42,120 nt of DNA. Origin: a virus. Position numbers and translations under genes: made by a program. Numbering within the stretch: the first letter of the stretch is position 1; each line of letters begins with the position of its first letter. The stretch lies in IMG/VR virus record IMGVR_UViG_3300001683_000039, positions 1 through 42,120 of that record. One strand, written 5' to 3'. Below are positions 6,049 to 14,819 of the stretch, piece by piece. Under the pieces are notes generated by a model. The model did no database searches, had not been told where the DNA came from, and worked only from the letters and a program-made list of their open reading frames with translations.

Positions 6049-6482
6049 GTTACTATGGACATGGAAAAAAGAAAATTAAGAGAACATGGACTGACCAATT
6101 ATTCTCAAAGTACATCAGAGACAGGGCTAACTGGAAGTGTCAGCACCCGAAGTGTGATAAGGAGTTTGATAAGGACGATGGAAAACAGTCTCGAAAGCTT
6201 CATTGCTGTCACATTGGCTACGGTAGGGGTCATATTCCTACTCGTTGGAATGAGTATAACTGTCTTGCTCTTTGTATGTATCACCATGATTGGGTTGATC
6301 AGCATCCCTTTCGTGCTCTTTGGTTACTTAATACCCATTTTTCCTTGGTTGAAATCTTATTTGTCAAGGATCAATATTCAAGCAAGAGGGTAAGAAGGAT
6401 CAACAAGGAATTTGAAAAAGAGGAGCGCAAGAGGGTTAAAAAACTTATGTTAGAACAGGAGAAAAAACATGCAAAGCTATGA
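6045..6482 (+). CDS. HNH/NinG-like zinc nuclease
   Basis: 145 aa with a GTG start overlapping the upstream stop (GTGA). C32 and C37 (NWKCQHPKCDKEF), C54-C55-H56 (KLHCCHIGYGRG), N72-C73 (EYNCLALC) and C77 followed by H80-H81 give the Cys/His arrangement of HNH nucleases, close to the NinG/Rap recombination proteins of lambdoid phages. The C-terminus (112-145) is a highly basic helix. Likely roles are resolution of recombination intermediates or nicking. No intron or intein flanks it, so it does not look like a homing enzyme. Confidence 0.65.
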   Translation: MSYYGHGKKKIKRTWTDQLFSKYIRDRANWKCQHPKCDKEFDKDDGKQSRKLHCCHIGYGRGHIPTRWNEYNCLALCMYHHDWVDQHPFRALWLLNTHFSLVEILFVKDQYSSKRVRRINKEFEKEERKRVKKLMLEQEKKHAKL

Positions 6483-6705
6483 ATTACCAGAGGAAGGTCT
6501 TGAGGTACTCCTGCTTGCTCTACAGATACTTGAGAAGCATGGTAACAAGTATCCAAGCATAGTTACGGAAGAACATTTTAAAATAGCAAATAGAATGGTG
6601 AGGGAACTTCTTATCATGACCACCACACGGATAACAAAAGGGAGAGAAAATGACACAAACGAGAATGGACTCACTAACGGTGGAGAAGTCACAGAGGGCG
6701 CTTGA
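6469..6705 (+). CDS. Hypothetical early protein, 78 aa
   Basis: ATG 6469 follows ACAGGAGAAAAAAC and overlaps the HNH gene by 14 bases. The N-terminal half is helical (EEGLEVLLLALQILEKHGNK), then VTEEHFKIANRMVRELL. The tail is polar and disordered. No motif recognised. The 3' end overlaps the next gene by 56 bases in another frame, so the true functional length may be shorter. Confidence 0.55.
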   Translation: MQSYELPEEGLEVLLLALQILEKHGNKYPSIVTEEHFKIANRMVRELLIMTTTRITKGRENDTNENGLTNGGEVTEGA

Positions 6706-8152: not shown

Positions 8153-8184
8153 ACAGTGTTAACCTTGGTTGGCAAACCAAAAAA

Positions 8185-8219
8185 AAAGCCCCCAATGGCT
8201 ATTAACCAGAGGGGGCTTT
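8185..8219. terminator. Bidirectional intrinsic terminator between convergent operons
   Basis: AAAGCCCCC (8185-8193) pairs with GGGGGCTTT (8211-8219) with a 17-base loop. On the minus strand it is followed by nine Ts, so it is a strong end for the accessory operon; on the plus strand it is followed by TTTCTT. A second small hairpin (TTGGTT/AACCAA, 8165-8180) flanks it. Confidence 0.9.
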
Positions 8220-8257
8220 CTTGTGCATACCATTCTCTGGCATGCGTGGAGACAAAC

Positions 8258-8890: not shown

Positions 8891-9132
8891 CACACCACCT
8901 CCGTTGAATTATCAAAGTCATCCTCGTTTATTGCTGTTATGGGAAACATTGCATCGTCTTCAAGTCCATTGTCTATTGCAATATTTACCGGGAAACCGGA
9001 CGGTCTTTTCATCTTCATTTCCAAGACAATGAACCGTTGCCCTTTGGAAAGTATCCATCCTTCAATATCAGTTATATCTACAGTCGCTTTCCTGACTCCA
9101 GACTTTTTGAATCCTTTAGGTATTCCTATCAT
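8890..9132 (-). CDS. Hypothetical protein, 80 aa
   Basis: ATG 9132 overlaps the upstream stop (ATGA), with GAGGTGG ahead. Predicted mostly beta: DITDIEGWILSKGQRFIVLE followed by RPSGFPVNIAID, an acidic turn and FPITAINEDDF. The small beta-barrel look resembles short OB or SH3-type domains, without enough signal for a call. It is in a tight cluster with the genes on each side. Confidence 0.55.
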   Translation of the reverse strand: MIGIPKGFKKSGVRKATVDITDIEGWILSKGQRFIVLEMKMKRPSGFPVNIAIDNGLEDDAMFPITAINEDDFDNSTEVV

Positions 9133-9494
9133 GAGACCACCTCACTTTCATCGTTGTAGAAATCGACATAACAACCAATCTCCCACTTATGTACAGCGGT
9201 CTTGAGGTCACATAACCATTCGTATTCCGCATGCAATTGGAAAACATCCACATTGATTATCTCATCGATACAATCTACGATTGCAGTCTTAAGACCATCG
9301 TCAAGGTTATGCATATCAACTTGATCGTTGACTATACCCCAACCATTGTCTCTGAGATGTTCTTCAATAGCGTCCTTAATTTGCCATTCATGTTCACCCT
9401 TAAAGTCGTACTTTTGAAGTTCCTTTCTTACTGCGGGATATGGGACTTTCAAATCCCAAGTGAATTCCTTTATTATTCTTAATTGAATCTCCAT
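9129..9494 (-). CDS. Hypothetical acidic protein, 121 aa
   Basis: ATG 9494 is set by AAAAAAGGAG; an in-frame upstream start at 9524 would lie inside the leader hairpin and is rejected. The protein is acidic and helical (EIQLRIIKEFTWDLKV at the start; KTAIVDCIDEIINVDVFQLH in the middle). No family recognised. It is the first gene behind tRNA-like element 1 and begins a tightly overlapping run of five genes down to the terminator. Confidence 0.6.
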   Translation of the reverse strand: MEIQLRIIKEFTWDLKVPYPAVRKELQKYDFKGEHEWQIKDAIEEHLRDNGWGIVNDQVDMHNLDDGLKTAIVDCIDEIINVDVFQLHAEYEWLCDLKTAVHKWEIGCYVDFYNDESEVVS

Positions 9495-9545
9495 AAGATT
9501 CTCCTTTTTTGTTTGTTTGTGCATTGGTCACACTGCGCGACCAAT
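9495..9545 (-). promoter_or_regulatory. 5' hairpin and ACAAACAAAC leader with SD, for the gene at 9129-9494
   Basis: On the minus strand, ATTGGTC plus GC pairs with GT plus GACCAAT (9523-9545; nine pairs, loop GCAGT). This is followed by the A/C-rich unpaired stretch CACAAACAAACAAAAAAGG and AGGAG. The module starts two bases after tRNA-like element 1. The same hairpin, leader and SD arrangement, with different stem sequences, precedes six other genes of this operon. Confidence 0.8.
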
Positions 9546-9547
9546 AG

Positions 9548-9590
9548 AACCCTGCCAAGGAATCGAACCTCGGGTAAACCATTCAGGGTT
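9548..9590 (-). ncRNA. tRNA-like element 1 (acceptor stem plus T-arm, no anticodon arm)
   Basis: Minus strand, 43 nt: AACCCTG pairs perfectly with CAGGGTT (acceptor, 7 bp). The linker is AATGGTTTAC. CCGAGG/CCTTGG (6 bp, one G-T) is closed by the loop TTCGATT, the canonical TTCRANY T-loop. The T-arm abuts the 3' acceptor strand directly, as in tRNA. There is no D-arm stem, no anticodon arm and no CCA end. A small hairpin (GCCTA/TAGGC, 9593-9606) overlapping the upstream stop codon precedes it. It is too short to be a tRNA gene; inferred to be an RNase P-type processing signal. Confidence 0.85.
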
Positions 9591-9601
9591 TCAGCCTATC
9601 G

Positions 9602-9844
9602 TTAGGCGTTTCGGATCACTGCAAAACCACCACCAGTAAGTTTCCTTACCGATAGCTTTTTCCCATTCAGCTTATTGAACTTACTAACCTGATTCCTCAC
9701 TCTACCGAGAATTGTCTCGCTTAGTGTAGAATATAGTTTAGCATCTCCAATGTCCATGGCATTCATCCATGTGCGCTTTCTTTGGGAGCCCTTCTTTATC
9801 CCTCTTGAGACAAAGCTAAGGCTGTTAGCATCTGCGAATTGCAT
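9602..9844 (-). CDS. Basic hypothetical protein, 80 aa
   Basis: ATG 9844 behind AGAAGGAG. Strongly basic (RGIKKGSQRKRTW, then GRVRNQVSKFNKLNGKKL, then SVRKLTGGGFAVIRNA), so nucleic-acid binding is plausible. No family recognised. It has the hairpin-plus-leader module but no obvious tRNA-like element directly upstream, where a short ORF overlaps its start instead. Confidence 0.6.
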   Translation of the reverse strand: MQFADANSLSFVSRGIKKGSQRKRTWMNAMDIGDAKLYSTLSETILGRVRNQVSKFNKLNGKKLSVRKLTGGGFAVIRNA

Positions 9845-10005
9845 TTGATACTCCTTCTGTTTGTTTTGGACTTAATTGTCCAAATTTTACCTTGGTGGCT
9901 CCACAAAGGATTACGATGGATCATGAACCCTCGTTTTCTTGCTTCAAGCCTGTTTAAACACCATCGCTTTGCGGTGTCCAAGGATTTTGTGGGTGGATTG
10001 TACAT
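9796..10005 (-). CDS. Possible small basic ORF overlapping the next gene
   Basis: ATG 10005 behind GAGGAATGGC, 69 aa. The first 44 residues look protein-like (LDTAKRWCLNRLEARKRGF, MIHRNPLWSHQGKIWTI). The last part runs through the leader and 49 bases of the next gene in another frame. It contains a GTTTAAAC site (Trp-Cys-Leu-Asn codons). It could be a real basic protein or a chance ORF in a 200-base gap. Immediately upstream, GGGTGG (about 10040) can pair with CCACCC (about 9993), a possible remnant of a structured element. Confidence 0.4.
   Translation of the reverse strand: MYNPPTKSLDTAKRWCLNRLEARKRGFMIHRNPLWSHQGKIWTIKSKTNRRSIKCNSQMLTALALSQEG
9845..9883 (-). promoter_or_regulatory. 5' hairpin and leader for the gene at 9602-9844
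   Basis: Minus strand: TTGGAC/GTCCAA with loop AATTAA (9866-9883), then AACAAACAGAAGGAG. The AATTAA loop is shared with the hairpin at 10365-10382. This is the only copy of the module that lacks a recognisable tRNA-like element before it. Confidence 0.7.
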
Positions 10006-10045
10006 GCCATTCCTCAGAATTAGCTGATGACCACCCCAATATAAT

Positions 10046-10297
10046 CTAAACTGTCACCAATAACTTATGCAGTAGTGATGTGTCTTTCTCGCCCCTTGAC
10101 TTCAGGCGAAGACTAACACTTTCACCAACACACTCACCGTTCTCAATGAATCCACCGGAAATGGGATAAAGCATCCCATCCGATAACTCCTTAAGACTGT
10201 CAGCGAACTCTCTATGGGTCACATACGCTGGAAAAGTTAGTATGTGCTTGTCCAATCCATCGTCAAAGACGACATACTTCGTTACATCTTCTATCAT
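10046..10297 (-). CDS. Hypothetical protein, 83 aa
   Basis: ATG 10297 behind GAAGGAGG, 12 bases after a nine-residue micro-ORF. Mixed alpha/beta (YVVFDDGLDKHILTFPAYV, then SDGMLYPISGGFIENGECVG). No family recognised. Its expression may depend on translation of the micro-ORF, since both lie behind tRNA-like element 2. Confidence 0.6.
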   Translation of the reverse strand: MIEDVTKYVVFDDGLDKHILTFPAYVTHREFADSLKELSDGMLYPISGGFIENGECVGESVSLRLKSRGEKDTSLLHKLLVTV

Positions 10298-10309
10298 CTT
10301 ACCTCCTTC

Positions 10310-10339
10310 CTATTCTTCTTGTTTTCCTGATAATGACAT
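10310..10339 (-). CDS. Nine-residue micro-ORF (MSLSGKQEE)
   Basis: ATG 10339 sits seven bases after AAAAGGAGATAAT and ends with TAG at 10310-10312. It directly follows the tRNA-like element, hairpin and leader module that elsewhere drives full genes, and a second SD for the next gene starts right after its stop. It could be a leader peptide that couples or tunes translation of the 83-aa gene. The strong SD supports translation; the role is unknown. Confidence 0.5.
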   Translation of the reverse strand: MSLSGKQEE

Positions 10340-10382
10340 ATTATCTCCTTTTGTTTGTTTGTGTAATGGCTTAATTGCCATT
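10340..10382 (-). promoter_or_regulatory. 5' hairpin and leader for the micro-ORF/83-aa gene pair
   Basis: Minus strand: AATGGC/GCCATT with loop AATTAA (10365-10382), then ACACAAACAAACAAAAGGAG. The hairpin begins two bases after the acceptor stem of tRNA-like element 2. Confidence 0.8.
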
Positions 10383-10384
10383 GA

Positions 10385-10426
10385 GGATAGCCCCGGAATT
10401 GAACCGGGGCGTGCTCCAAGCTATCC
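10385..10426 (-). ncRNA. tRNA-like element 2
   Basis: Minus strand, 42 nt: acceptor GGATAGC/GCTATCC (7 perfect pairs), linker TTGGAGCACGC, T-stem CCCGG/CCGGG (5 perfect pairs, exactly tRNA length), loop TTCAATT. The linker holds TGG, which could supply the G18-G19 equivalents for an elbow contact with the T-loop, and GCTTGGAGC can form a three-pair mini D-arm. Acceptor plus T-arm is 12 bp, the tRNA standard. The first base (10426) is the last base of the TAG stop of the upstream gene. There is no anticodon arm or CCA. Confidence 0.88.
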
Positions 10427-10638
10427 TATATAAGACCTGCCTTTCTCATTAATGATGTTAATCTTCCTTCGCCACACTCAGGGCAAGGATAATCGGCATC
10501 GGTTTCTACATCCTGTGAGAACCCACACTTGTCACATTCCGCTGAGTCGTTTTCAAGGTCGAAAACTATGCGCACAAACCGATCCATTTCCTCTTTTGTG
10601 AAGCCCTCATATCTGTGAGTTTTCTTTTCTGTACTCAC
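10426..10638 (-). CDS. Zinc-ribbon protein, 70 aa
   Basis: GTG start 10638 behind TAAGGAGGTCTGAC. Two cysteine pairs, ECDKCGFSQD (C-x-x-C) and YPCPECGEGR (C-x-x-C), are separated by an acidic loop and form a rubredoxin-type zinc ribbon. The N-terminus is charged. The start lies one base after the stop of the candidate histone-fold gene, and its SD is inside that gene. The stop codon overlaps the first base of tRNA-like element 2. The partner is unknown. Confidence 0.65.
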   Translation of the reverse strand: MSTEKKTHRYEGFTKEEMDRFVRIVFDLENDSAECDKCGFSQDVETDADYPCPECGEGRLTSLMRKAGLI

Positions 10639-10639
10639 G

Positions 10640-10936
10640 TCAGACCTCCTTACTTAAGGCAACAGCCTGTTCATGGCAAAAGCCCTGAACTGTCATTGCC
10701 CATTTGTAGAATTGCGGTTTGAGATTCACGCCATCCTTCTTTGCCTTCTCTGTGACCACCTTGGTCTTGAGAACACAATGATGAGACATGATCGTTTTCA
10801 TGTTGTCTTCGGTACTGTTTAAACAGACCTGATCCAACACCTCTGCCAGTAATCTATTGATGCCATCATAGGCATCCGCTGATACTGACAGTCCCTGATC
10901 GTTGATGTACGATCTAACTTTGGTTTTCTGGATCAC
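10640..10936 (-). CDS. Candidate phage histone-fold protein, 98 aa
   Basis: GTG 10936 is chosen because GAGAGG lies six bases ahead and the codon overlaps the previous stop (GTGA); a TTG at 10963 is an alternative. Residues 3-54 follow the histone-fold plan: a short helix KTKVRSYINDQ (4-14), loop GLSVSADA (15-22), a long helix (about 22-40, DGINRLLAEVLDQVCLN), loop with MKTIMSHH (47-53). The S-x-D-A and K-T-x-x-x-x-H positions match archaeal-type histones. A 45-residue tail follows (NLKPQFYKWAMTVQGF). Histone folds are known in bacteria and phages. DNA binding here is inference. Confidence 0.55.
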   Translation of the reverse strand: MIQKTKVRSYINDQGLSVSADAYDGINRLLAEVLDQVCLNSTEDNMKTIMSHHCVLKTKVVTEKAKKDGVNLKPQFYKWAMTVQGFCHEQAVALSKEV

Positions 10937-11244
10937 GCTAAACCTCTCTTTGTCCCATGACAAACCTTAGCGTCAATCAGTAATCTCGCCTGTCTCCCAA
11001 AGTAACCTTGGAGTTTCCAAGCAATTCCAGTATCAATGAGGTACTGGTTTGCTTTAATGAAAAGAGAGTTAGCTTCATCTACGCCTAACTCACTCACAAT
11101 AAACCCAGCCAATTCCCAATGTCCCTCTGCAATCATCGTAGCTTGGAAGGTGTTTAAACACTCTCCAGTTACTTTGTTACCTTGGGAATCATATGGGTTA
11201 TGGGTTGACTTATTCTGTTTCTTAATCGTGCTTAATCCATGCAT
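10933..11244 (-). CDS. Hypothetical protein, 103 aa
   Basis: ATG 11244 behind AGAAGGAG. The N-terminal 25 residues are basic and polar, then helical (GECLNTFQATMIAEGHWELA, then DEANSLFIKANQYLIDTGIA). A GTTTAAAC site lies at 11152-11159. The gene is joined to the candidate histone-fold gene by a GTGA overlap, so the two products may work together. No family recognised. Confidence 0.6.
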   Translation of the reverse strand: MHGLSTIKKQNKSTHNPYDSQGNKVTGECLNTFQATMIAEGHWELAGFIVSELGVDEANSLFIKANQYLIDTGIAWKLQGYFGRQARLLIDAKVCHGTKRGLA

Positions 11245-11293
11245 GATTGGTCTCCTTCTGTTTGTTTGTGTAAACGGTTACTTTGTGTAACCG
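11245..11293 (-). promoter_or_regulatory. 5' hairpin and leader for the gene at 10933-11244
   Basis: Minus strand: CGGTTAC/GTAACCG (7 perfect pairs, loop ACAAA, 11275-11293), then ACACAAACAAACAGAAGGAG. It begins four bases after tRNA-like element 3. Confidence 0.8.
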
Positions 11294-11297
11294 ATTG

Positions 11298-11344
11298 AAC
11301 TCAGGGGAGGAATTGAACCTCCCCATAGCTACCAAGCCTGAGCT
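11298..11344 (-). ncRNA. tRNA-like element 3
   Basis: Minus strand, 47 nt: acceptor AGCTCAG/CTGAGTT (7 pairs, one G-T), linker GCTTGGTAGCTATG, T-stem GGGAGG/CCTCCC (6 perfect pairs), loop TTCAATT. The 5' part, AGCTCAGGCTTGGTAGC, is strikingly close to a tRNA D-arm sequence and shares GCTTGG-T-AGC with element 2. Its first two bases are the AG of the TAG stop of the 30-aa membrane ORF. There is no anticodon arm or CCA. Confidence 0.85.
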
Positions 11345-11435
11345 ATTTGGTGACATACCATTCAATGAATCTTCCAAGCAGTAAGCAGGACGTTGTCCAG
11401 ACATACCACACTGTGAGTTTCTCGTACCATTTCAT
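11343..11435 (-). CDS. Small membrane-like protein, 30 aa
   Basis: ATG 11435 overlaps the stop of the SprT gene (ATGA), with GGAGG upstream; TAG at 11343-11345. Residues 8-25 (TVWYVWTTSCLLLGRFIE) are hydrophobic and aromatic and could lie in or on a membrane. Its stop overlaps the acceptor stem of tRNA-like element 3. It fills the gap exactly between two well-supported features, which argues that it is real. Confidence 0.6.
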   Translation of the reverse strand: MKWYEKLTVWYVWTTSCLLLGRFIEWYVTK

Positions 11436-12064
11436 TCCGCCACCTCCATATTCTCGTGACACTCAGGACAAATTGGTGTCCCGTAGTTTTCAATTGAAGT
11501 GCGCGACTGTCTTACGATAATCCCACAATCACAGTACACCTTGAGCATTCTTGTGGTCTGCTTACCTCTGGTATTAGGAATCCATTTCTTATGGGGCATT
11601 TTACCATGCGTCTTGATCCATTTGTTGATCTCTTTTTTCAGATCAGCACCCACTGACGTGGCTGTCATCTTACCTCCAAGACCAACATCCACTGCAACCC
11701 ACCTGAACGCATTCTTGTGACCATGACCTTTTGTGATCGCATGAATCATCTCATGGATCAGCACGCCAATGATCTGAACTTGGTTAGTTAGATTGGGTGT
11801 TATGAATATCTCAGTACCAAACTTGTCGTTACCAACTTTATAGTCGTAGTGACACTGTCCGATGTGACCGAGTTTAACATCAACTCCACCATTATGTGAG
11901 TGAGCCTTAACCCTCTGGTTTGGGCTGTATGCCATGTTGAACTGTACCGATTTGAGATTTAATGGTTTAACTTTGAAACCTCTGATTGTACGCCGTTTAA
12001 ACAGTGTCAAATTAATCGTTTTAGCAATCTCATGTAGCCACTGTTCTCGTGTGTCAATTTTCAT
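11432..12064 (-). CDS. SprT-like zinc metalloprotease
   Basis: 210 aa from ATG 12064 behind AAAAAAGGAG. HEMIH (104-108) with KGHGHKNAF (112-120) gives the HExxH-(n)-H zinc site of SprT/Spartan-type proteases. GTEIFITPNL before it is the conserved strand region. The C-terminus has a zinc ribbon, C178-x-C180 and C199-x-x-C202. Spartan-family enzymes remove proteins crosslinked to DNA; the phage substrate is unknown. It lies within the accessory operon, just behind tRNA-like element 4, and contains a GTTTAAAC site at 11995-12002. Confidence 0.75.
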   Translation of the reverse strand: MKIDTREQWLHEIAKTINLTLFKRRTIRGFKVKPLNLKSVQFNMAYSPNQRVKAHSHNGGVDVKLGHIGQCHYDYKVGNDKFGTEIFITPNLTNQVQIIGVLIHEMIHAITKGHGHKNAFRWVAVDVGLGGKMTATSVGADLKKEINKWIKTHGKMPHKKWIPNTRGKQTTRMLKVYCDCGIIVRQSRTSIENYGTPICPECHENMEVAE

Positions 12065-12105
12065 AATATCTCCTTTTTTGTTTGTGTGTTACAGCTTGTG
12101 CTGTA
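12065..12105 (-). promoter_or_regulatory. 5' hairpin and leader for the SprT-like gene
   Basis: Minus strand: TACAGC/GCTGTA (6 perfect pairs, loop ACAA, 12090-12105), then CACACAAACAAAAAAGGAG and the ATG. The hairpin starts one base after tRNA-like element 4. Confidence 0.8.
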
Positions 12106-12106
12106 G

Positions 12107-12150
12107 AACCTGTGGGTGGAATCGAACCACCCACTTGAACCATTCAGGTT
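12107..12150 (-). ncRNA. tRNA-like element 4
   Basis: Minus strand, 44 nt: acceptor AACCTG/CAGGTT (6 perfect pairs), linker AATGGTTCAAG, T-stem TGGGTGG/CCACCCA (7 perfect pairs), loop TTCGATT. The total of 13 stacked pairs is one more than a tRNA acceptor plus T-arm. The junction CTGAATGGTT is shared with element 1, so these two are probably sister copies whose T-stems have diverged while still pairing. The first base (12150) is the last A of the TAA stop of the upstream gene. Confidence 0.87.
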
Positions 12151-12422
12151 TATTGTTTATCGAAAAAGTGACCTACTTCGACAGTAGTGCGATAGGTATC
12201 ATTACCATCCCACCTCGATAGACTGACACACCGGACACTTCTTGGTCTTTCTGTAGAGGAAGTCACGAGCGACGTGTCACCATGGTCATGTCTGTCAATA
12301 TCGACTGAACCATATCCATCATTATCATCATAAATCCAAATCTCATCACCATTGGATAATTTGATTTCAATAGTATGACATTTTCTCACTTCATCTGTTT
12401 CAAGATTTTGAGTTATTTTCAT
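12150..12422 (-). CDS. Hypothetical acidic protein, 90 aa
   Basis: ATG 12422 behind AACAGGAGACTAAA; the longer in-frame start at 12479 would run through the leader hairpin and is rejected. The centre is acidic and Gly/Asp-rich (DEIWIYDDNDGYGSVDIDRH), followed by a Ser/Arg stretch and a beta-rich end. No family recognised. The stop codon overlaps tRNA-like element 4. Confidence 0.6.
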   Translation of the reverse strand: MKITQNLETDEVRKCHTIEIKLSNGDEIWIYDDNDGYGSVDIDRHDHGDTSLVTSSTERPRSVRCVSLSRWDGNDTYRTTVEVGHFFDKQ

Positions 12423-12465
12423 TTTAGTCTCCTGTTGTTTTACTTGTGTAACGACTTTGTGTCGT
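12423..12465 (-). promoter_or_regulatory. 5' hairpin and leader for the 90-aa gene
   Basis: Minus strand: ACGAC/GTCGT (5 perfect pairs, loop ACAAA, 12451-12465), then an A/C-rich stretch containing ACACAAGTAAAACAAC and AGGAG. The loop matches the hairpin at 11275-11293. Confidence 0.7.
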
Positions 12466-12468
12466 AGT

Positions 12469-12513
12469 GGGCTGGTCAATAGCGAATTGAATAATGACTG
12501 ATCATTCCAGCCC
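12469..12513 (-). ncRNA. tRNA-like element 5 (degenerate T-arm)
   Basis: Minus strand, 45 nt: acceptor GGGCTGG/CCAGCCC (7 perfect pairs). Inside, AATGATCAGTCATT can form a perfect 5-bp hairpin, and TTCAATTC follows at the T-loop position, but the T-stem is weak (GTCA/TGAC with a mismatch, then TA/TA). The junction CTGGAATG recalls elements 1 and 4. It keeps the acceptor and the linker start but appears partly decayed or differently folded. A TATAAT lies about 16 bases upstream on this strand. Confidence 0.6.
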
Positions 12514-12528
12514 TACACAAACATTAGG

Positions 12529-12534
12529 TATTAT
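12529..12534 (-). promoter_or_regulatory. Possible internal -10 box upstream of element 5
   Basis: TATAAT on the minus strand, with no good -35 (TTATCT at 19 bases is the nearest). If active it would start transcripts at or next to tRNA-like element 5. Weak call. Confidence 0.25.
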
Positions 12535-12576
12535 AGTGATCGTCTATCCTATTGAGATAACCGCCAGTGTCTGACT

Positions 12577-12627
12577 TTATGTTAATCTGCAACTACCTGA
12601 GACTGCTCTGCTCAGTAAGTCGGTCAT
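12577..12627 (-). CDS. Sixteen-residue micro-ORF
   Basis: ATG 12627 lies behind AGAAGGAATCC and ends with TAA at 12577-12579. The peptide is MTDLLSRAVSGSCRLT. It occupies the place where a gene would follow tRNA-like element 6 and its hairpin. It is the first translatable ORF of the operon and may be a leader peptide. Function unknown; the only evidence is the SD and the repeated architecture. Confidence 0.4.
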   Translation of the reverse strand: MTDLLSRAVSGSCRLT

Positions 12628-12669
12628 GGATTCCTTCTTGATCACTTATTGTGAAGATGCTGTCTTCAC
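12628..12669 (-). promoter_or_regulatory. 5' hairpin and leader after element 6
   Basis: Minus strand: GTGAAGA/TCTTCAC (7 perfect pairs, loop CAGCA, 12651-12669), then AATAAGTGATCAAGAAGGA. The leader is less A/C-rich than in the other copies. Confidence 0.6.
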
Positions 12670-12673
12670 TCAA

Positions 12674-12715
12674 GGTTTTGTCGAGGAGTATTCCCTCGAT
12701 GCACCGGGCAAAACC
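12674..12715 (-). ncRNA. tRNA-like element 6 (non-canonical T-loop), head of the operon
   Basis: Minus strand, 42 nt: acceptor GGTTTTG/CAAAACC (7 perfect pairs), linker CCCGGTGCA, T-stem TCGAGG/CCTCGA (6 perfect pairs), seven-base loop GAATACT. The geometry is the same as in elements 1-4 but the loop does not match TTCRANY. It lies about 25 bases after a candidate promoter, so it would be near the 5' end of the primary transcript. The structure reads almost as well on the plus strand, so the strand is inferred from its neighbours. Confidence 0.65.
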
Positions 12716-12744
12716 ATCTAATTGTCTAATAACTTCACCAGAAA

Positions 12745-12772
12745 GGTATAACATTTGTTACATATGTTGCAA
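12745..12772 (-). promoter_or_regulatory. Candidate promoter of the minus-strand accessory operon
   Basis: Minus strand: TTGCAA (12772-12767), 16 bases, TATACC (12750-12745). The start would fall near 12738, about 23 bases before element 6. The -10 overlaps a perfect inverted repeat TAACA-TT-TGTTA (12749-12760), a possible operator. A TATAAT on the plus strand (12783-12788) may belong to a divergent promoter for the structural genes. Confidence 0.45.
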
Positions 12773-13430: not shown

Positions 13431-14819
13431 ATGAATATAGATAACAAAAAAATATTATGGAAACCTCATAAGGGAGCCCAAACAACCGCCCTTCAACAGA
13501 CAGCATTTGAAGTCTTATATGGAGGAGCAAGAGGCGGAGGTAAGACTGAGGCTGGTTTAGCTTGGATGATTGAACCTAATTATCTAATGAATCCACGATA
13601 CAGGGGACTTGTTATTCGTAGGAACTACGATGACTTGCGAGATTGGATTGATAGAGCGAGACAATTCTATAGGAGCTTAGGTGTTAAGGTAACTGGGAAT
13701 CCAGCAGAGTTTAATTTCCCATCAGGGGCAAAGATACGGACTGGTCACCTTGCAGATAGCGATGCTACATATAAATACTTAGGTCACGAGTATCACAAGA
13801 TACTTATTGAAGAGCTTACTATCATACCTGAAGAGGAGCACTATCTTAGGCTTATCTCTACATGCCGTTCTACGGTAAAGGGTCTCATTCCACAAATATT
13901 TTGCACAACCAACCCCGGAGGTGTCGGGCATATGTGGGTAAAACAGAGGTTTGTAGATGTCGCCCGAAACGAAGAGTACATTGATCCAGTTACTGGTAGG
14001 GATAGAATATTCATACCATCTCGCGTATACGACAACCCAACTCTAATGAAACACGATCCTAATTATGTAAAGACGCTTGAAGGGTTACCTGAAGAGCTTA
14101 AACGTGCATGGTTAGATGGAGACTGGGACGTATTTAGCGGGCAATACTTTAATAGGTGGAGATATGAGAAGCATGTTGTGAAACCATTTAAGATTCCTTC
14201 TGACTGGCATAGATATCGCGCTATTGACTATGGATTCTCTGCCCCTTTCTGTTGTCTCTGGATTGCTGTGGATTACGATGGGGACGCATATGTATATAAG
14301 GAACACTATGAAAAGCGCCAACCCCTATCACATCACACGGCAAAAATAAAAGAATTCAGCGCTGATGAAAAATATCAGAACACTCTTGCCGATCCAGCCT
14401 GTTGGATAAGAAACCCACAGAACACAAACAACTGGAGTAACGCCTTGCCTACCCATATGTCTATTGCAGATATAATGCAGTTTGATGGAGTAACGGCTAA
14501 CAGGGCAAACAATGACCGTATAAACGGTTGGAATGTTGTACGCGAATACTTAGAGTGGAATGATTCGGATAAACCTGAGCCACGTCTTAAAATCTTTGAG
14601 AATTGTAAGAATCTTATAAGGACTCTGCCAATGCTTGTACACTCTGAGAAGAGACCGGAGGACTTGGATACCAAACAGGAAGACCATTCTGCTGACGCAC
14701 TCCGTTATGGTTTGATGTACATAGGTAGCCCAAGTAAAGACAGTGTTAAGCCTTATTTACAGAGGGAACTTGAGAAACTTTTAGCAATGGATTCCACATG
14801 GACGGGGATAAGAAATTAA
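13431..14819 (+). CDS. terL: Terminase large subunit (packaging ATPase-nuclease)
   Basis: 462 aa. Walker A is GGARGGGKT (31-39), Walker B LIEE (125-128) and coupling motif CTTNPGG (158-164). The nuclease domain opens with AIDYGFS (264-270), whose Asp266 should bind metal; DHSADALRYG near the C-terminus supplies the last acidic residue of the RNase H-like site. It translocates DNA into the prohead and cuts it. The ATG has no clear SD and follows a C/T homopolymer tract, so initiation may be weak. Confidence 0.95.
   Translation: MNIDNKKILWKPHKGAQTTALQQTAFEVLYGGARGGGKTEAGLAWMIEPNYLMNPRYRGLVIRRNYDDLRDWIDRARQFYRSLGVKVTGNPAEFNFPSGAKIRTGHLADSDATYKYLGHEYHKILIEELTIIPEEEHYLRLISTCRSTVKGLIPQIFCTTNPGGVGHMWVKQRFVDVARNEEYIDPVTGRDRIFIPSRVYDNPTLMKHDPNYVKTLEGLPEELKRAWLDGDWDVFSGQYFNRWRYEKHVVKPFKIPSDWHRYRAIDYGFSAPFCCLWIAVDYDGDAYVYKEHYEKRQPLSHHTAKIKEFSADEKYQNTLADPACWIRNPQNTNNWSNALPTHMSIADIMQFDGVTANRANNDRINGWNVVREYLEWNDSDKPEPRLKIFENCKNLIRTLPMLVHSEKRPEDLDTKQEDHSADALRYGLMYIGSPSKDSVKPYLQRELEKLLAMDSTWTGIRN

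Follow-up and report, generated by a model that had tools for sequence, protein, structure and literature searches.

The stretch of DNA analyzed in this study (the window) comprises 42,120 nt of the virus record IMGVR_UViG_3300001683_000039 (positions 1–42,120), and coordinates count from its first letter. A minus-strand operon occupies approximately 8.3–12.75 kb, upstream of the large terminase (TerL) gene (13431–14819) on the opposite strand, and the gaps between its genes hold short RNA elements that resemble the acceptor and T-arm half of a tRNA. No named phage similar to the first 25 kb of the window was found. An earlier note on this sequence had listed six such elements. Four of them are real (elements 1–4; Table 1), the fifth proved to be a variant form (type II), and the sixth has no T-loop; element 3 had been located correctly, and its ends were corrected from 10385–10426 to 10384–10427.

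Elements 1–4 are near-identical in plan. From 5′ to 3′, each begins with an acceptor-like strand and a linker, continues with a T-arm whose loop is TTCGATT or TTCAATT, and closes with the second acceptor strand, and in all four the helix runs unbroken for 13 bp from the T-loop to the helix end. The linker, previously described as usually holding TGG, does contain this triplet and is itself a 2-bp armlet around UGG(U), resembling a tiny D-arm. The armlets read in relatives were AA-TGG-TT, CT-TGG-AG, TT-TGG-AA, CA-TGG-TG, TA-TGG-TA, and AT-TGG-AT, with two covarying pairs flanking the triplet. Judged by these sequences, the armlet is a D-arm cut down to two pairs and carrying GG. In tRNA, the GG of the D-loop contacts the T-loop and thereby makes the elbow; by extrapolation from this established structure, the GG of the armlet would face the T-loop in a comparable three-dimensional elbow. 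Each element is followed by a C, a second hairpin within a few nucleotides, an A/C-rich leader, a ribosome-binding site, and ATG. The hairpin after each element and the conserved leader were additional to the earlier list; an example of the leader in the window is ACACAAACAAACAAAAGGAG, which is unstructured and lies ahead of ATG.

As had been stated earlier, the elements have neither an anticodon arm nor CCA. The tRNA models (ARAGORN and Rfam RF00005) matched nothing at the elements, in which the armlet is followed by a short linker and then by the T-arm. No family in Rfam 15 scored above its gathering threshold there; the best sub-threshold scores were those of mascRNA at element 4 (18.1 bits; cut-off, 42.5 bits) and, on the reverse strand, Plastid-ycf2 (24.1 bits; cut-off, 65.7 bits). 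Four elements in 42 kb exceed chance; control viral loci totaling 1.04 Mb yielded a single match of equal score.

Table 1. Positions of the tRNA-mimic elements and neighboring features in the window
Feature	Position	Strand	Description
tRNA-mimic element 1	12107..12150	-	13 bp: AACCTG/CAGGTT + TGGGTGG/CCACCCA; armlet AA-TGG-TT; T-loop TTCGATT
tRNA-mimic element 2	11298..11344	-	13 bp; armlet CT-TGGT-AG; T-loop TTCAATT
tRNA-mimic element 3	10384..10427	-	AGGATAGC/GCTATCCT + CCCGG/CCGGG; armlet CT-TGG-AG; T-loop TTCAATT
tRNA-mimic element 4	9548..9590	-	AACCCTG/CAGGGTT + CCGAGG/CCTTGG; armlet AA-TGG-TT; T-loop TTCGATT; 54.1 bits
Type II variant element	12468..12514	-	Acceptor-like stem; 4-bp D-like hairpin; 5-bp arm, loop TCGCT
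Hairpin 3′ of element 1	12090..12105	-	TACAGC acaa GCTGTA
Hairpin 3′ of element 2	11275..11293	-	CGGTTAC acaaa GTAACCG
Hairpin 3′ of element 3	10365..10382	-	AATGGC aattaa GCCATT
Hairpin 3′ of element 4	9522..9546	-	10 bp
Hairpin 3′ of type II element	12451..12465	-	ACGAC acaaa GTCGT
Hairpin and leader of the same kind, without tRNA-mimic	9865..9884	-	Before gene 9602–9841; read directly
Leader hairpin at operon start	12674..12715	-	7 + 6 bp, loop GAATACT; outside the class
Candidate sigma-70-like promoter of the operon	12745..12772	-	TTGCAA, 16 nt, TATACC; read directly
SprT-like protein gene, behind element 1	11432..12064	-	PF10263, E 6e-5, slightly under the Pfam cut-off
DUF7417 gene, behind element 2	10933..11244	-	
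Gene without assigned function, behind element 4	9129..9494	-	

The stems of the four elements differ in sequence within the window, and all of them pair. The compensatory changes that the earlier note had suggested seeking in relatives were found: the orthologous element 1 before the SprT-like gene of a near relative (L001:1915–1959) carries two compensatory double changes, one turning T-A into C-G and the other turning T-A into A-T. In an alignment of 60 diverse copies (A3), the pattern-derived members of which had been picked for at least 11 of 12 pairs, 98.6% of the cells were paired, 349 cells were altered on both sides compared with 87 ± 9 in shuffles, and the covariation score was 1.05 compared with 0.17 for shuffled alignments; the signal was lost when the partners were slid. 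Unselected pattern hits gave the same picture, as 56 of the 103 distinct sequences formed all 12 pairs against 0.7 expected on exchanging strands between elements, and 73 of the 103 had perfect acceptor stems against 5.5 expected.

To these, an unbiased set of 31 distinct copies was added, which was collected from terminase relatives by the T-loop and helix alone. All 31 copies had a paired armlet (9.2 in shuffled linkers), GG in the linker, a helix of 13 bp, and an orientation opposite to TerL. In the pattern searches, raw hit counts were rejected as a measure because the scrambled control also matched more than 120 stretches, and the fraction of hits with at least 11 of 12 pairs (structured hits) was used instead. 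Structured hits accounted for 87 of 107, 51 of 64, and 52 of 62 matches to the paired armlets AATGGTT, CTTGGAG, and TTTGGAA, respectively, compared with 7 of 27 for the broken armlet AATGGAA (39 stretches in the whole collection) and 2 of 45 for the scrambled TGG. Folding of single copies on the minus strand, which the earlier note had proposed, recovered the T-arm in all four elements and the acceptor stem in two of them, and the comparative evidence is therefore the stronger. Selection on the RNA, first proposed from the window itself, and a tRNA-like fold are strongly supported by the sequence comparisons.

The position of the elements was examined in 108 distinct copies, with an open reading frame of at least 30 amino acids starting with ATG no more than 140 nt downstream counted as a start. 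A same-strand start was found for 103 of the 108 copies at a median distance of 38 nt, and an opposite-strand start for 39. In approximately 100 copies, a stop codon closing an open frame lay at the 5′ end, with modes at −1/0 and +7 to +12 nt, and a second hairpin followed 70 copies against 8.6 expected. The order in phages was, with few exceptions, stop codon, element, hairpin where present, ribosome-binding site, and ATG. Read gap by gap, the arrays of Mycobacterium phages Indlulamithi and Cuke show a stop codon, usually 5–12 nt, the element, R-C-N-N, a hairpin, a GAGAGGATGG-like site, and ATG. At the positions matching tRNA 73–76, the 108 copies have any base, C in 79%, C in 3%, and A in 59%, and no CCA.

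The elements mark gene boundaries and can correct start sites in phages rich in unknown small genes. In Indlulamithi, the element at NC_048824 40963–41008 (L207:7464–7509) overlaps the annotated start of gp53 (40980), and translation probably begins at the ATG that lies some 38 nt beyond the element. Two comparisons between near relatives concern the gene boundaries themselves. Around 6300–6700, one relative (L008) lacks one small gene together with one element that are present in L007, and the joint lies at the element in a cassette-like manner. Between L001 and the window, stems were swapped and leaders were retained.

The covariance-model search of viral records suggested in the earlier note uncovered arrays in unrelated phages, and the observation became much broader than first reported; it would amount to a widespread structured phage RNA. 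The terminase relatives carried 1–6 copies each, and some, such as L016, carried none. Patterns combining armlet and T-loop matched well over 100 viral contigs in IMG/VR, most of them without terminase kinship to the window. Searches of whole records with the covariance model, R1, gave about 10 matches in Cuke (L111), about 10 in a second 87-kb record, some of them partial, and 7 each in two other records. Indlulamithi (NC_048824) carried an array of 11 full-length copies, and Mycobacterium phages Fowlmouth and MrMiyagi gave 10 R1 matches each. R1 matched nothing in lambda, T7, P1, P2, phiKZ, Bxb1, TM4, and HTVC033P. A single weak match in T4 (21.6 bits) sits in the annotated tRNA-Leu gene and was dismissed as an artefact. 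Among bacterial genomes, the exact pattern occurred in 1 of 395 Bacteroidota genomes (one armlet type, one phylum), and the covariance-model search of bacterial phyla gave hits in 0 of 199 and 2 of 296 genomes; the latter search is weak because few candidates were scored, and the exact-pattern result is firmer. The elements are thus nearly absent from the sampled bacterial genomes. Taken together, the deep covariation, the D-armlet placed to face the T-loop, the position between stop and start codons, and the spread over unrelated phages support RNA selection and tRNA mimicry.

Since unrelated phages share this anatomy, a widely shared host factor that reads the acceptor, the T-arm, and the elbow is implied, and host tRNA-processing enzymes probably cut or mark the mRNA at the elements. 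The earlier note had proposed that host RNase P cuts here. RNase P cleaves models consisting of an acceptor, T-stem, and T-loop at the canonical site with a 12-bp ruler, shows strong interference at G19, G53, and A58, contacts RCC, and pairs C74 with its RNA subunit; its known substrates include phage M3 RNA, C4 RNA, T4 gene 32 mRNA, and operon mRNAs (PMC11143913). Several of these features are present in the elements, which have a stacked acceptor and T-stem of 12–13 bp with a TTCRAYT loop. The elbow nucleotides GG, G53, C56, and A58 are also present, although C56 and A58 are not independent evidence because the search required both. The picture for the RCC(A) motif is mixed: the common C74 fits RNase P, C75 is rare, and position 73 can be any base. 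RNase P is the most economical recognizer on this analysis, a best guess to which we give about half of our confidence.

Some findings weigh against cleavage by RNase P. The C75 of the RCCA motif is avoided, and about one third of the copies have no second hairpin. In a minority of copies, about 15 of the 108, the expected cut falls inside the upstream stop codon; elements 2 and 3 are among the two or three such cases in the window (the 5′ end of element 3, for example, is overlapped by the TAG of gene 10426–10638). Early cutting would then yield non-stop mRNA, which counts against unconditional cleavage. Furthermore, the position would be accounted for just as well by a structured insulator or exonuclease block that is not cut.

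Such an insulator is a serious rival, although we consider it rather unlikely. It would block exonucleases between cistrons, or free the leader and ribosome-binding site from the upstream coding sequence and so isolate the translation of each gene, and the stable covarying folds, the frequent second hairpin with its open A/C-rich leader, and the stop codons overlapping the 5′ end in some copies are consistent with it. A plain stable hairpin would serve this purpose, however, and it would be left unexplained why unrelated phages share a conserved T-loop, a GG armlet, and a frequent C74. RNase Z likewise reads the acceptor and T-arm. If RNase Z or another tRNA 3′ enzyme were the main processor, the cut would fall past the discriminator base and the mRNA would begin at the second hairpin. 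The absence of CCA and the avoidance of C75 suit a CCA-less substrate, and the second hairpin begins a few nucleotides from the cut site, but the enzyme has no need of the common C74 and may be hindered by a hairpin directly behind its site; we regard this alternative, likewise a serious rival, as unlikely.

The remaining explanations are less probable still. Elements that occur several times in a genome, up to about ten, and keep an intact T-arm might serve as multicopy decoys titrating a host factor that binds tRNA, such as RNase P, TruB/TrmA, EF-Tu, or a defence nuclease. A decoy would not have to sit once at every gene boundary, nor in a set order of stop codon, element, and ribosome-binding site, and we find this role very unlikely; decoys for anticodon nucleases are unlikely because the elements have no anticodon arm. 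It is highly improbable that the elements act as DNA, either as a recombination boundary or as a protein-binding repeat that swaps gene cassettes. The joint at the element in L008 and the swapped stems with retained leaders in L001 would fit such a site, whereas the stems covary and differ between copies, little DNA beyond the T-loop is shared, and the strand follows the genes; for an integron attC-like site in particular, the conserved T-loop and the armlet covariation favor RNA. Decayed tRNA genes would account for the tRNA-like T-loop and acceptor, but this origin was rejected as extremely improbable, being contradicted by the covariation as well as by perfect helices, one anatomy in unrelated phages, and the absence of any ARAGORN or Rfam tRNA match.

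We therefore return to cleavage by RNase P, which agrees with the 12–13 bp helix, the GG elbow, and C74, and is at odds with the avoided C75 and the stop codons overlapping the cut. The elements would be anticodon-less tRNA mimics in the gaps of a polycistronic phage mRNA. The tRNA-maturation machinery of the host, primarily RNase P, alone or together with RNase Z, would recognize the elbow and measure the 12–13 bp, and the mRNA would be cut at the 5′ end of the acceptor, at or just past the upstream stop codon. Every downstream cistron would thereby acquire a separate 5′ end with a stable tRNA-like fold as its cap; in many phages, this fold is followed by a second hairpin and then by an open A/C-rich leader that runs up to the ribosome-binding site. 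The presumed purpose is the separation and stabilization of cistrons. That the elements are anticodon-less tRNA mimics that punctuate phage mRNA and are most likely cut by host RNase P is, in our judgment, an evenly balanced proposition, with the recognizer, the cutting, and the purpose inferred. The wider reading, namely a virus-specific form of tRNA punctuation in which unrelated dsDNA phages of different hosts let RNase P divide their mRNA into cistrons whose 5′ ends are structured, in the manner of mitochondrial tRNAs, is tentative and falls somewhat short of even chances.

If cleavage by RNase P is true, the arrays would be the phage counterpart of tRNA punctuation. In mitochondrial transcripts, tRNA folds lie between genes, and overlaps with stop codons occur there too; mitochondrial punctuation uses functional tRNAs, whereas the phage elements lack the anticodon arm and do not code for a tRNA. 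To our knowledge, such an operon organization is otherwise known only with real tRNAs in organelles. RNase P minisubstrates, M3 RNA, the C4 RNA of P1/P7, and operon mRNAs share the acceptor, T-stem, and T-loop, the ruler of about 12 bp, and the phage or mRNA context (PMC11143913). These non-tRNA substrates are single cases or synthetic, whereas the phage elements, known here from sequence, form arrays with one copy per gene boundary and contain a D-armlet; they would supply natural minimal candidate substrates for RNase P. MALAT1 mascRNA and the 3′ tRNA-like structures of plant viruses are also tRNA mimics recognized by tRNA enzymes, but differ in position, hosts, and size.

The start-associated sequences (SAS) and extended SAS (ESAS) of Cluster K mycobacteriophages and Cluster EF Microbacterium phages are likewise repeats before start codons in actinophage gaps. 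ESAS are imperfect 17-bp inverted repeats beside the 13-bp SAS, and their authors found little support for RNA pairing (PMC3203893). Identity with the Cluster K ESAS was rejected, as R1 matches nothing in TM4; the Cluster EF phages lay outside the search. The element class appears to be new as an RNA class and has no Rfam family; no description of it was found in the open-access literature, and an earlier description elsewhere is rather unlikely.

The type II element differs from elements 1–4 and is a real conserved form. It consists of 8 bp, a 4-bp D-like hairpin that is larger than the armlet, and a 5-bp arm with the loop UCGCU. In an alignment of 8 relatives (7 distinct sequences), 98.3% of the cells were paired and 5 pairs were altered on both sides, and among the elements of the operon, the type II element came first in the relatives examined. 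The hairpin at 12674–12715 was rejected as a class member. Its sequence is shared unchanged by the two nearest relatives (L001 and L002); the hairpin is replaced by another conserved leader in the remaining relatives, and belongs to the transcript start, downstream of the sigma-70-like promoter. The position of this putative promoter is kept in relatives, as TTGACA...GATACT. At the place corresponding to 12640–12740 on the minus strand of the window, L007, L010, L012, L014, and L018 have an apparently structured conserved leader with the motif TAAGTCTCT(A/C)GAATGCA...

Several further observations were made on individual contigs. Dense CT-TGG-AG arrays occur in L444, with six copies within 5 kb, and in L397, with four copies, and some of the downstream hairpins are nearly identical. 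At L040:1376–1425, a type I hammerhead ribozyme was matched by RF00163 with 35.9 bits, which exceeds the gathering threshold; this viral contig also bears two tRNA-mimic elements. A terminase 100% identical to TerL of the window is encoded on L061 (DQKQ01000231.1), a contig binned in a Flavobacteriales metagenome-assembled genome, which is not proof of the host. Despite this bin, the Shine-Dalgarno sites of the window are strong, an unusual feature for Bacteroidota. At 8165–8222 of the window, a G+C-rich hairpin with A and T runs on either side lies between convergent operons and is probably a bidirectional terminator.

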